The notes under the pieces: generated by a model
Told to the model about the DNA's origin: nothing
Databases searched by the model: none
What the model saw: the letters and a program-made list of their open reading frames with translations, nothing else
Source: a virus
IMG/VR virus record: IMGVR_UViG_3300043466_000558
Span: 1-34,558 of that record
Reading direction: 5' to 3' (one strand)
Length of the DNA: 34,558 nt
In this document: piece after piece, positions 17,693-20,950 of the stretch
Layout: every line of letters begins with the position of its first letter
Numbering within the stretch: the stretch's first letter is position 1
Translations under genes and position numbers: made by a program

Positions 17693-18319
17693 TTACACAA
17701 GCGTTTTGCTTTCACAATTTTCTACCAACTTTGCTTCTGCTTCCCTACGCTTTAAAAGTCCATCCATGCCCTTGCCTTCCCATAGTCTTTTCATTTTCCT
17801 AATCTCATTAGCTATACCCTTGTAATCTTTCTTTGGAACAAGAACTCTTATGTTCCTCATTTCCAATCTGTTATCTCCCGCCATTGAAGATCCTCTATTA
17901 AATACAAGGGATACGATTGCTCCATAGGCATCATCGCAAAGTTCATCTAAAGAAGGAAATGCTTTCTCTGCAAGGCTTGCAAATTTGGGCCAAGTAGTTT
18001 TTTCAAAGATACCCTTGGCTTGATCCCATGATACAACAATCCCCGCTTCCCTTAATGTTTTAGTATATTCCTTGCCAGATGATCCAGTTTTTCCAGTTGC
18101 ACCCTGTATCAAAGTAATTTGTTTTTTAGGCAGGAAGGAAAAGATGTTGGCTAATTCTTGGGGTGAATAGTAAGCGCAATCTATTCCAATGCCGATTGTC
18201 GGGCCAGATGCACCTCCGGGCCATGTAAATTGGCTCAAATACTTGTTGTAATAGTTTTCCCCTCCACCGACTTCATAATCCATGAGGACTTTAAGAGTGT
18301 TGCTAGATGGTGATTTCAC
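17693..18319 (-). CDS. endolysin, GH24/T4-lysozyme-like (208 aa)
   Basis: The product would cut peptidoglycan glycan strands at lysis. The catalytic arrangement is recognisable: Glu16 in DYEVGGGE, then PTIGIGIDC at about 40-48, the counterpart of the 'GxxTxGxGxD' loop. Later, AYGAIVSLVFNRGS (131-144) matches the 'DALVSFxFNxG' helix and LLKRREAEAKL (188-198) matches the conserved 'RRxxExxL' helix. The start is a GTG at 18319 whose GTGA overlaps the upstream stop by four bases. No signal peptide or SAR helix is seen, so export needs a holin. It is the last gene of the lysis cassette. Confidence 0.8.
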   Translation of the reverse strand: MKSPSSNTLKVLMDYEVGGGENYYNKYLSQFTWPGGASGPTIGIGIDCAYYSPQELANIFSFLPKKQITLIQGATGKTGSSGKEYTKTLREAGIVVSWDQAKGIFEKTTWPKFASLAEKAFPSLDELCDDAYGAIVSLVFNRGSSMAGDNRLEMRNIRVLVPKKDYKGIANEIRKMKRLWEGKGMDGLLKRREAEAKLVENCESKTLV

Positions 18320-18633
18320 GATGTGTAGCTATCTTCTTTGGCGTTGCTGGTCAGCTTTTCAAAAATCTCTTCTTTGGCGTGAGAGACATTGCCAAGGATT
18401 TGCTGAACTTGGGACGTTCCCATCTTCCAATCATAGACCATCCGACCAGTTACTAGGAACACAACGATTGCCCCAGTCACATACAGGGTATTAGTAGTAA
18501 TGGTAACAAACCCAGCAAGCGCAATCTCTGGTAGTGTGTATAGATGGGCAACAGCCCACCTCCACGACGCTTGGATAAGCGCAATACCTATCAGGGAAAT
18601 GATCAACCGCTGGGATACAAGTTTGGGAATCAT
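18316..18633 (-). CDS. membrane protein in lysis cassette, holin candidate (105 aa)
   Basis: The ATG at 18633 overlaps the spanin stop as ATGA and has GGAAG eight bases upstream, one of the few SD-like sequences here; five upstream codons are therefore excluded. Two hydrophobic segments are clear, about residues 10-32 (LIISLIGIALIQASWRWAVA) and 38-65 (IALAGFVTITTNTLYVTGAI and beyond). They are followed by a charged cytoplasmic-type tail with a helix (VQQILGNVSHAKEEIFEKL). Size, topology and position directly before the endolysin suit a holin or antiholin. The smaller 2-TM protein upstream is the rival candidate. Confidence 0.68.
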   Translation of the reverse strand: MIPKLVSQRLIISLIGIALIQASWRWAVAHLYTLPEIALAGFVTITTNTLYVTGAIVVFLVTGRMVYDWKMGTSQVQQILGNVSHAKEEIFEKLTSNAKEDSYTS

Positions 18634-19016
18634 GGTCGAAACTTCCATGCGGTCTTAATACCTACATAAACCACTACACACAAAATGCCAGAAATTGTAA
18701 TAATTCGCCAAGTCCACAACTCTTTAAGGGCTTTTATTTGCTTCTCATGCCAATAAGCGGCATCGTTTTGCGCCTTGGCAAGATCCTTTGATTGTTGGTC
18801 AACTTGCGCTTGGTATGTATTTACTGCGGAGATTACGTCTTTAATCGCCGCATTTCCTGCGGAGTTTGTAATATGCGGCTTGAGCCTTTCAATGCTCGTC
18901 TTTACTCCAACTACTGATGGCGCAGTATATTGCTCCTTTTCTTTGGAAGCACACCCTAAAGTCGTAAGGCTAAATGCTAAAGTCGTAAGGGTGAACGCTA
19001 AAGTCGTATGCTTCAT
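18630..19016 (-). CDS. unimolecular-type spanin: lipoprotein with C-terminal TM (128 aa)
   Basis: It would fuse the inner and outer membranes in the last step of Gram-negative lysis. The N-terminus is a lipoprotein signal (MKHTTLAFTLTTLAFSLTTL) with the lipobox TLGC, so Cys22 would be acylated. A periplasmic helical stretch follows (AVNTYQAQVDQQSKDLAKAQ). Near the C-terminus, about 103-123, is one transmembrane segment (IITISGILCVVVYVGIKTAW) ending in Lys/Arg. Outer-membrane lipid at one end plus an inner-membrane anchor at the other is the u-spanin layout (phage T1 gp11 type). Start and stop overlap both neighbours by ATGA. The signal peptide is encoded by a 21-bp tandem repeat. Confidence 0.72.
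   Translation of the reverse strand: MKHTTLAFTLTTLAFSLTTLGCASKEKEQYTAPSVVGVKTSIERLKPHITNSAGNAAIKDVISAVNTYQAQVDQQSKDLAKAQNDAAYWHEKQIKALKELWTWRIITISGILCVVVYVGIKTAWKFRP
18956..19008 (-). repeat. 21-bp tandem repeat encoding the spanin signal peptide
   Basis: Two adjacent 21-bp units, at 18956-18976 and 18977-18997, plus an 11-bp partial copy at 18998-19008. On the plus strand each begins CTAAAGTCGTA. In frame they encode repeated Thr-Thr-Leu-Ala-Phe-x-Leu heptapeptides that form the hydrophobic core of the lipoprotein signal. Confidence 0.85.
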
Positions 19017-19204
19017 TTCTTAAATGATTTCAACGCCCTGATTCCTGAAAAGATTGCTATGATTGCGCCGACAAAAGAAACAATCAATGTCATGTTTTGG
19101 AGCCACACATGGGTTGTGTTAAAGAATGAAATAATCAAAGTGAGCAAAGACACAATTGCGCTAGTTGATCCAACATCAGATACTTGTGGTGTGGGATTAG
19201 ACAT
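19013..19204 (-). CDS. small two-TM protein, holin candidate (63 aa)
   Basis: The product (MSNPTPQVSDVGSTSAIVSL start) has two predicted membrane helices at about 15-31 and 38-57 and a basic C-terminus (KSFKK), the classic minimal holin shape. It is the first gene of the lysis cassette and its stop overlaps the spanin start as ATGA; the upstream gene overlaps its start by 8 bases. Holins make the membrane lesion that releases endolysin. With two small membrane proteins in the cassette, a holin/antiholin pair is possible. Confidence 0.68.
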   Translation of the reverse strand: MSNPTPQVSDVGSTSAIVSLLTLIISFFNTTHVWLQNMTLIVSFVGAIIAIFSGIRALKSFKK

Positions 19205-19477: not shown

Positions 19478-20950
19478 TTATGGGAGGCCGAGGCCGAGGC
19501 CGAGGGTGGACTTGTAAAGATTGTAGATTGCCGTATTGCTTACTGGGGCATAGAAAGCTGCCGCAAACGGAATAACTCCCTTATATGTGTATTGAGCGGA
19601 AAGTGCGCTTCCTATATTCAAAGAAGTTTGAGTTGTTCCACTCACAATCGTTTGAGTCGCTACCTGTGTGTTGTTTTGATTTACTGTCAATACAGAGCCA
19701 TTGGACAGCATTGAGTGGCAACCGAATCCAGTTGGTAATGGTGTGATTTGAAAGGAGTTAATAGTCGTGCCATCTGGTGAACTAATGGCGCGAAGGTTAC
19801 TAGCATTTGTCACTCCTAGTGACGCCCCTCTTCCACCAGACCCATATATATCTCTATTCCCGATTGCTGTTATCTGGATTTCTGATGAGCTTATCTGTGA
19901 CCAATCCGAACAGACAAAAATACCATTGTTTGTCAGGTTTGGATTGAGGTTAGTCCCAATAAACTGTGTTGCAGTTTTATTAAAATTTATCCCAGAACTA
20001 CCCCAAGCTGGGCCGTTAATTAGATTACCATCAAACGCCCCCAGCCCCCCAAGCGAAAATGCCGTAATGCCGCCCCCTGCATTCTGACTAGCCCTCAAAG
20101 GCCAACACACCATGCTATTCCACAAGCCGAGGCTCTTGATCCCTCTCACGAAGTCCGAGATCAGTCGGCGTGAGTCGGAGTAGCCGGTGATGATAGGGCC
20201 AATGTTCGGAGCGGTGACCAAAGGTGTTCCGTTGTTGGTGAGCGTGTTCGTGCCGTGAGAATCGGCGGTGACGCTGTTCTGGTTGAGTGCCCACCATGAG
20301 ACGAGGTTGTTGCGAAGTCCGGTGTCGAGCGAGGCGTAGGTGCGGCCTGCGCCGTTGTTCCAGAGTTGGCTGACTTCGGAGGCTGTGAGTGCCCTCTTCC
20401 AGAAGCCGACGGAGGAGATGCTCCCCGCCCAATTTTGGGAGTAACCAGGCGACACCCCAATTCCAAACTCTCCAGTCCCCGAAGTTGTAATAGACCCCGA
20501 TGCATTCCCCACGCTAGCCCCGTTCAGATAAATGGTTGCCGTGGTTCCGTTGTAGGTGAAGACGGCATGGTTCCATGTGTTTGCTGTAACGGGAGTAGCC
20601 GATTGCGCTACAATTACCCAACCGGAGGCATTGTTGGCCAAAAGCATTTGGATGGTTGCTCCGTTTACGCAAAGTCCATATTCAAGGAGACTGAACGCTG
20701 ATTTGCCTATTAAATACTTCGTTCCGCTCACGTTGCTGGCATTAAACCAAACCGAGAAGCTGAACGCTTGCCCGCCGATTTGAAGCGTCGAGTTGCTCGG
20801 AATGCTCAAAAACTGATTCGTCCCATTGAAAGACGCCGCATCGTCGTAGCTAGACGGCGTCTGGGTGCCGCTCGCAATGCCTGCCCTCAAGAAATATTGA
20901 TAGGCATCTGGATCTACTCCTTCTCCGAATATGATCGGATAACCACTCAT
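19478..20950 (-). CDS. LamG-domain virion protein (490 aa)
   Basis: Residues about 35-195 form a LamG/concanavalin-like lectin domain: SFNGTNQFLSIPSNSTLQIG, FSFSVWFNAS, WNHAVFTYNGTTATIYLNG and ISSVGFWKRALTASEVSQLW. These are the standard LamG strands. After a linker, a second beta-rich half (ITAFSLGGLGAFDGNLINGP and following) completes the protein. The C-terminus LGLGLGLP comes from a GAGGCC hexamer repeat. The middle of the gene (roughly 20110-20450) is markedly GC-rich compared with both ends, consistent with domain exchange. Carbohydrate binding on the virion surface is the likely job. It lies between head-decoration genes and the lysis cassette. Confidence 0.72.
   Translation of the reverse strand: MSGYPIIFGEGVDPDAYQYFLRAGIASGTQTPSSYDDAASFNGTNQFLSIPSNSTLQIGGQAFSFSVWFNASNVSGTKYLIGKSAFSLLEYGLCVNGATIQMLLANNASGWVIVAQSATPVTANTWNHAVFTYNGTTATIYLNGASVGNASGSITTSGTGEFGIGVSPGYSQNWAGSISSVGFWKRALTASEVSQLWNNGAGRTYASLDTGLRNNLVSWWALNQNSVTADSHGTNTLTNNGTPLVTAPNIGPIITGYSDSRRLISDFVRGIKSLGLWNSMVCWPLRASQNAGGGITAFSLGGLGAFDGNLINGPAWGSSGINFNKTATQFIGTNLNPNLTNNGIFVCSDWSQISSSEIQITAIGNRDIYGSGGRGASLGVTNASNLRAISSPDGTTINSFQITPLPTGFGCHSMLSNGSVLTVNQNNTQVATQTIVSGTTQTSLNIGSALSAQYTYKGVIPFAAAFYAPVSNTAIYNLYKSTLGLGLGLP
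19484..19505 (+). repeat. GAGGCC hexamer repeat
   Basis: Three full GAGGCC units plus GAGG at the 3' end of the LamG gene. Read on the minus strand they give alternating Leu-Gly just before the stop. Such a tract can change length by slippage. Confidence 0.8.

Follow-up and report, generated by a model that had tools for sequence, protein, structure and literature searches.

What does a tandem repeat do inside the export signal of a phage lysis gene? In the window, by which we mean the whole stretch of 34,558 nt that was analysed and in whose positions all coordinates are given, Tandem Repeats Finder returned a repeat of period 21 with 2.5 copies, 90% matches and a score of 85, the top score among its 13 rows (Table 1). 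The initial annotation had placed a 21-bp tandem unit at exactly these coordinates, and had read it as the signal peptide of a spanin, made by tandem duplication, open to changes of length through slippage and able to tune secretion or lysis timing. Read on the minus strand, the repeat accounts for the greater part of the signal peptide of a u-spanin-like protein (MKHTTLAFTLTTLAFSLTTLG, followed by the lipobox cysteine). The N-terminus of the open reading frame, MKHTTLAFTLTTLAFSLTTLGC, parses as MKH-TTLAFTL-TTLAFSL-TTLG-C, with two full heptapeptides and a partial third, and the frame offers no in-frame start besides the ATG at 19016 ahead of Cys22.

Self-similarity was scored on 66-nt stretches across the window in steps of 11 nt; it reached its maximum of 26 at the signal region, and the best non-overlapping stretch scored 18. 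None of 20,000 codon shuffles of the signal peptide attained the observed self-similarity, and only 2 of 20,000 random synonymous recodings were as repetitive as the actual DNA, which indicates that the DNA itself is repeated and that the signal is not merely a leucine- and threonine-rich peptide. An origin by in-frame duplication is plausible, since the repetition of the DNA exceeds that of the peptide, as such a duplication would give. Among the relatives found, no signal has one or two units, and the duplication was thus not observed at an intermediate stage.

Table 1. Features of the repeat, of the gene that carries it and of the neighbouring lysis genes (window positions)
Feature	Positions	Strand	Basis
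Endolysin, 208 aa	17693..18319	-	Pfam Phage_lysozyme, PHROG
Second holin-like gene, 110-aa membrane protein	18316..18648	-	Hydropathy, weaker; a single weak hit to a PHROG of unknown function
u-spanin-like lipoprotein gene, 128 aa: repeat signal peptide, predicted helical periplasmic part, C-terminal membrane segment	18630..19016	-	ORF, 75 IMG/VR relatives, AlphaFold2
C-terminal membrane segment, about residues 105-123	18648..18704	-	Kyte-Doolittle hydropathy
Signal peptide coding region, codons 1-22 including lipobox Cys22	18951..19016	-	
21-bp tandem repeat, 2.5 copies	18956..19008	-	Tandem Repeats Finder, codon shuffles
Core 3, CTT ACG ACT TTA, then lipobox Gly-Cys	18957..18968	-	
Linker 2, variable	18969..18977	-	
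Core 2, CTT ACG ACT TTA	18978..18989	-	
Linker 1, variable, missing in L124/L192	18990..18998	-	
Core 1, CAT ACG ACT TTA	18999..19010	-	
Holin-like gene, 63 aa, two-segment membrane protein	19013..19204	-	Hydropathy

A spanin-like lipoprotein in a lysis cassette

By its architecture, and not by database match, the 128-residue product is a unimolecular-spanin-like lysis lipoprotein, as far as sequence and predicted structure can tell. The best 19-residue Kyte-Doolittle mean within its last 40 residues is 2.06, the same measure having a minimum of 1.39 and a median of 1.96 over 55 relatives, and an AlphaFold2 model (mean pLDDT 74, pTM 0.36) places helices at residues 4-20, 33-48 and 52-125; the C-terminal transmembrane segment of a u-spanin is thus found both in the hydropathy and in the last of these helices. 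The lysis-gene setting is also present, the endolysin being recognised by family (Pfam Phage_lysozyme, E 2.4e-8, 34.8 bits against a cut-off of 22.3; PHROG endolysin, E 7.3e-6) and the holins by hydropathy only: the gene lies between those for the 63-aa and the 110-aa membrane proteins, with the endolysin gene following. No PHROGs or Pfam family naming a holin matched the 63-aa protein. The TGA stop of its gene overlaps the ATG of the u-spanin gene (ATGA), and this arrangement, with the upstream stop one base into the u-spanin start, was seen in 9 of the 9 loci examined.

The lipobox of the window protein, TLGC, fails the strict pattern [LVI][ASTVI][GAS]C. That pattern is missed by all five distinct repeat-type signals and matched by 41 of the 50 distinct signals of the family; the window signal does agree with a PS51257-like lipobox pattern. 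The Gly-Cys pair is invariant in 22 of 22 aligned relatives, most of them with textbook lipoprotein signals. Furthermore, all 55 distinct relatives, the window protein included, lack a periplasmic cysteine when the last 35 residues are not counted, as do 58 of 58 u-spanins in Kongari et al. (2018, PMC6139136). Judged against the T1 gp11-type unimolecular spanins described there, the window protein shares a putative N-terminal lipoylation signal, the C-terminal membrane segment, the lysis-gene context, a length of about 130 residues and the absence of a periplasmic cysteine. It differs from them in a periplasmic part predicted, with moderate confidence, to be all helical where the T1 family is beta-rich, and in its TLGC lipobox, its repeat-built signal and the lack of any sequence match to them.

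Matches to spanin families were weak (PHROG 9841, E 0.24 for the window protein and E 0.0046 for a close relative in L005), and tblastn against 50,697 phage records, with E up to 1, gave no similarity to a recognised u-spanin. The terminase and a 469-aa structural-type protein were likewise without a tblastn match in named phages, against which short DNA queries gave chance-level hits only (best E 0.5 and 8). Among solved structures no match fell below E 0.069, and none of 26 candidate stretches in genome contigs, searched for host or prophage relatives, encodes a relative.

Two further observations concern the genes around and beyond this cassette. At 19484-19505, on the minus strand, an in-frame hexanucleotide repeat (GAGGCC, 3.7 copies) encodes LGLGLGLP at the C-terminus of a 490-aa protein (19478-20950), which makes it a further place where length might change in frame. 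There is also a second family of u-spanin-like proteins, about 193 aa long, with a lipobox and a C-terminal membrane segment in the three members read whole and no clear PHROGs family; it occurs at L074:3670-4248 (plus strand), in L046, L065 and others. In about 38 of 80 loci, as judged by eye from N-termini, a gene of this family precedes the homologous endolysin.

Unit number and hydrophobicity among relatives

Relatives of the u-spanin were collected from IMG/VR (37 loci in a first scan, 75 in a profile scan), and 80 of 89 endolysin relatives found were kept. Among the 76 u-spanin genes, the 75 together with that of the window, a signal was called in 70, which gave 54 distinct DNA sequences, and two more were read by hand. 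The TTL repeat signal occurs in seven contigs, namely the window, L151-L153 (= L002-L004), L168 (= L017), L192 (= L124) and L185 (= L129). These amount to five distinct sequences, L151-L153 being one phage recovered from three metagenomes (the loci compared are 100% or 99.99% identical).

All seven contigs have three cores, on bodies down to 57% identical, and the array is unchanged in the phage found in three metagenomes. The 21-bp spacing is kept throughout in four of the five distinct repeat signals, and L192 is without 9 bp of linker 1; this 9-bp difference within a linker, which is not one unit, is the only difference in length among the repeat signals. Four pattern scans of IMG/VR (for a single unit, for a pair of units with variable spacing, for the start plus core 1, and for core 3 plus the lipobox) returned these contigs and no form with fewer or more units, and otherwise matched unrelated sequence.

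Hydropathy offers a possible reason for this constancy. Per residue, the TTL signals (1.23 to 1.66) rank with the least hydrophobic, and they place 18 or 21 residues ahead of the cysteine, the commonest type having 15. Summed past residue 3, hydropathy is 22.1 for the window signal, about 10 coming from each full unit, and ranges from 21.7 to 54.0 (median 32.5) in the 50 distinct signals of the family, from which we infer that the loss of one unit would drop the window signal under the range seen in the family. Copy number may therefore be constant because losing a unit would probably leave the hydrophobic stretch too short.

Exchange of signals between phages

Comparison of the contigs shows an exchange of cassettes: repeat and ordinary signals stand as whole blocks on near-identical mature proteins, and the breakpoints fall at the start codon on one side and the lipobox on the other. 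L151 and L154 agree at 143 of 147 and 165 of 165 positions of the mature part and at all of the next 330 bases (330/330), and their signals agree at only 28 of 48 positions with 18 gap positions in addition, and their upstream genes at 132 of 181. The window and L151 are nearly the same over the signal (64/66) and over the mature part in its first half (148/150), the upstream gene agreeing at 115 of 181 positions, and between the window and L192 the signal is alike (52/57) on mature parts 54-61% identical. The window and L168 have the upstream gene, the signal and the mature part in common, with 58 of the last 60 upstream bases identical, and show no detectable similarity downstream. Over the compared loci, BLASTN found between the window and L017 a 557-bp block at 91%, covering the upstream gene and the u-spanin gene, and nothing else shared; the window and L124 shared only 109 bp, around the signal, and the window and L129 shared 354 bp at 68%.

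On a tree of 55 mature proteins, which draws on few columns, leaves 16 of 52 inner branches open and uses coarse signal groups, the repeat type is scattered and needs five changes for its five rows, at least three of them imposed by well supported branches. Taken together, the four signal groups require 17 changes on this tree, where the least possible number is 3 and the mean after shuffling is 26.4. Some of the dissimilarity between signals could be due to vertical loss of a repeat type that was once widespread. Exchange of signals between phages, which was not part of the initial annotation, is better supported than tuning by copy number.

The nearest precedent is found among the o-spanins of T5 and Shivani, and of Jersey and FSL_SP-031, which in PMC6139136 are alike except for the lipoylation signal, so that there too a near-identical mature lipoprotein carries an unrelated signal. 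In those cases the change of signal accompanies a passage from overlapped to separated gene pairs, whereas here it concerns a single-gene spanin in which several signal types are exchanged in place. A literature search found no account of a u-spanin signal that is built from repeats or exchanged, although absence is not thereby proven; what we regard as new is the block exchange of the signal between lysis cassettes, the fixed number of units in the data examined and a core that resists synonymous change. As a separate observation, two relatives (L193 and L217) have two lipoboxes per signal (MNKLLIGCALLLLIGC, MRNIIIGCASMILIGC), which looks like a duplication of the lipobox segment.

Core sites, linker sites and the origin of the repeat

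The repeat signals do not change evenly along their length. With three 12-nt cores whose boundaries were partly set after the contrast had been seen, the window and L185 differ at 1 of 36 core and 13 of 27 linker nucleotides, and synonymous changes number 0 of 11 in the cores and 3 of 4 in the linkers, compared with 34 of 58 in the body, the bodies being 57% identical. With cores defined from the window only, the differences in L185 amount to 4 of 39 positions in the core against 10 of 24 outside it (p 0.0054), and to 0 of 12 against 7 of 9 third positions (p 0.0003); the corresponding figures for L192 are 2 of 37 against 3 of 17 (p 0.31) and 0 of 12 against 3 of 6 (p 0.025). The deep contrast for the repeat type comes only from these two sequences.

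Repetition and frozen codons are found in other signals too. Internal repetition exceeds codon shuffles at p < 0.05 in 19 of the 54 distinct signals, which are related and not independent. A second type, of 16 residues (e.g. MNKLLIVCASMILIGC), has a 24-bp internal repeat. Over 22 of its sequences and 195 pairs with bodies less than 65% identical, codons 5, 6, 12, 13 and 14, a set chosen after inspection, are identical in 100% of same-residue pairs, where the body mean is 0.40 over 43 columns, one of which also reaches 1.00, and the linker codons 7, 9, 10 and 11 are at 0.29-0.41, like the body. In six representatives below 60% identity the third bases of these codons are T in 30 of 30 cases, with 42% expected. 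Two 16-residue rows were left out: L158 has one exception to the pattern, and L223 does not conform to it. The 15-residue non-repeat signals are mostly without a synonymous freeze and have no overall excess. Frozen synonymous sites in the cores beside drifting linkers are not accounted for by exchange alone.

Several candidate causes of such a freeze gave negative results. Predicted RNA structure over the five repeat-type signals was not unusual (z -1.3 to +0.5; -0.30 for the region, against synonymous or dinucleotide shuffles). On the sense strand nothing overlaps the signal except, at its start codon, the stop of the gene before it. The antisense frames spanning the signal stay open for 88, 73, 29, 30 and 32 codons in the five sequences, so that there is no conserved antisense reading frame. 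Between 17600 and 19600 one promoter-like site was found, outside the repeat, where 3.9 were expected, and ACGACTTTAGC, allowing up to two mismatches, was counted 6 times in the window against 6.9 expected. In the phage records examined the exact 12-mer TTACGACTTTAG lies only inside the signal, and so is not a genome-wide site. A pairing of downstream TAAAGACG sites with the cores was dropped, as bodies with other signals have, by eye, identical sites. In another group of signals, the QII type, all nine were predicted to fold as a hairpin, but only L204 clearly exceeds its synonymous shuffles, and the conservation of the best signal codons is equalled by 9 of 81 body columns. The inverted repeat CATTGC-N7-GCAATG is seen by eye in the signal region of 8 of the 9 members (e.g. 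L196), where it is predicted to form a hairpin.

How, then, is the repeat to be read? Phase-variable or contingency loci have coding tandem repeats near the N-terminus, as the window gene has, and a locus in which slippage often changes the number of units, and with it export or lysis timing, would find favour in the true 21-bp in-frame repeat and in the 9-bp difference between two members. It is nevertheless most improbable here. Frequent slippage is not expected of a unit as long as 21 bp, and 2.5 copies are a short array; unlike contingency loci, the window gene has a unit that is a multiple of three and shows no variation in copy number among its relatives. Of the marks of a repeat-length contingency locus, a coding repeat tract is present, and the unit number is identical among relatives. 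Because copy number is invariant among the contigs examined, with three cores in all seven (five distinct), a lone length change that is not a unit and an unchanged array in one phage from three metagenomes, we reject tunable slippage as the main account, and with it that part of the initial annotation. The latter had proposed that slippage would be contradicted by invariant copy number with units diverging as ordinary codons do; copy number is invariant and the linkers do diverge in this way, but the cores do not. It is also improbable, if less so, that the N-terminus is no lipoprotein signal or that the protein is no spanin, being for instance a membrane-bound chaperone of lysis. The lack of a convincing family match, the non-consensus lipobox and a predicted helical fold unlike the beta-rich T1 gp11 family (PMC6139136) speak for this; the invariant Gly-Cys with its mostly textbook neighbours, the lysis cassette and the missing periplasmic cysteine speak against it, and the repeat-built signal peptide of the initial annotation is upheld as that of a spanin-like lipoprotein.

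Two other proposals concern the bases themselves. The signal may have begun as a repeated heptanucleotide, perhaps taken from bacterial intergenic repeats; a 7-nt unit passes through all three frames and so gives a period of 21 nt and 7 residues. Self-match at lag 7 is high in the window, L151 and L168 (codon-shuffle frequency at most 0.0002) and in L192 (0.007), and arrays of three CGACTTTA cores occur in 34 bacterial or archaeal genome stretches, L252 (Akkermansiaceae MAG) having a repeated CCTTACGACTTTAG. However, in L185 the 21-nt period is present and the 7-nt period is not (0.28), lag 7 was chosen after the 21-nt period was known, the bacterial arrays repeat at many different periods (about 11 to 21) and were counted without a control motif, so that they are no proof of origin, and within the Akkermansiaceae MAG the 12-mer occurs at a single array; such an origin seems very improbable. 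The CGACTTTA arrays of at least three cores and various periods, in L235 (Verrucomicrobiota MAG), L252 and others among the 34 stretches, are recorded here in their own right. That the cores double as a nucleic-acid element, a binding site, a recombination site or a codon-paced start region, with selection on bases, is unlikely but deserves more weight. The unchanged synonymous sites of the cores, the five unchanged codons of the second type with T at every third base, and the general lack of a freeze in non-repeat 15-residue signals argue for it. The post hoc choice of those codons, the two excluded rows, the p value of L192 over all positions, the body column that is just as invariant, a deep contrast drawn from two sequences, the absence of RNA structure and the confinement of the 12-mer to the signal all count against it. 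In the specific form of this proposal, the cores (CTTACGACTTTA three times at 21 bp and CTTCTTATTG twice at 24 bp), unchanged down to their synonymous sites between drifting linkers on proteins otherwise 40-60% identical, would be binding or recombination sites for the trading of signals, or would pace the first codons of a lysis gene; this we hold to be somewhat more doubtful still.

The reading that we favour, and think reasonably probable, joins the two main results: the repeat would be the signal of a u-spanin-like protein that arose by in-frame duplication and is now an exchangeable allele at constant copy number. A tandem duplication of a hydrophobic L-T-T-L block would have given birth to the signal, and 2.5 weakly hydrophobic units may sum to a working hydrophobic stretch. 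By analogy with known spanins, the Sec system would export the protein, the signal would be cut before Cys22, and this cysteine would be lipidated and anchor the protein in the outer membrane, the C-terminal segment remaining in the inner membrane, so that the protein could bridge and disrupt the envelope once the endolysin has acted. The comparisons show the repeat signal circulating as one of several interchangeable signal alleles, swapped by recombination at the junction of the holin and u-spanin genes, with one breakpoint at the overlapping start codon and the other at the lipobox. The export signal of a lysis gene would then be a movable part, the working protein being kept and its address label replaced at a fixed place, and, if the synonymous freeze is real, the DNA encoding the signal peptides of lysis lipoproteins would hold information in its bases beyond that of the peptide.
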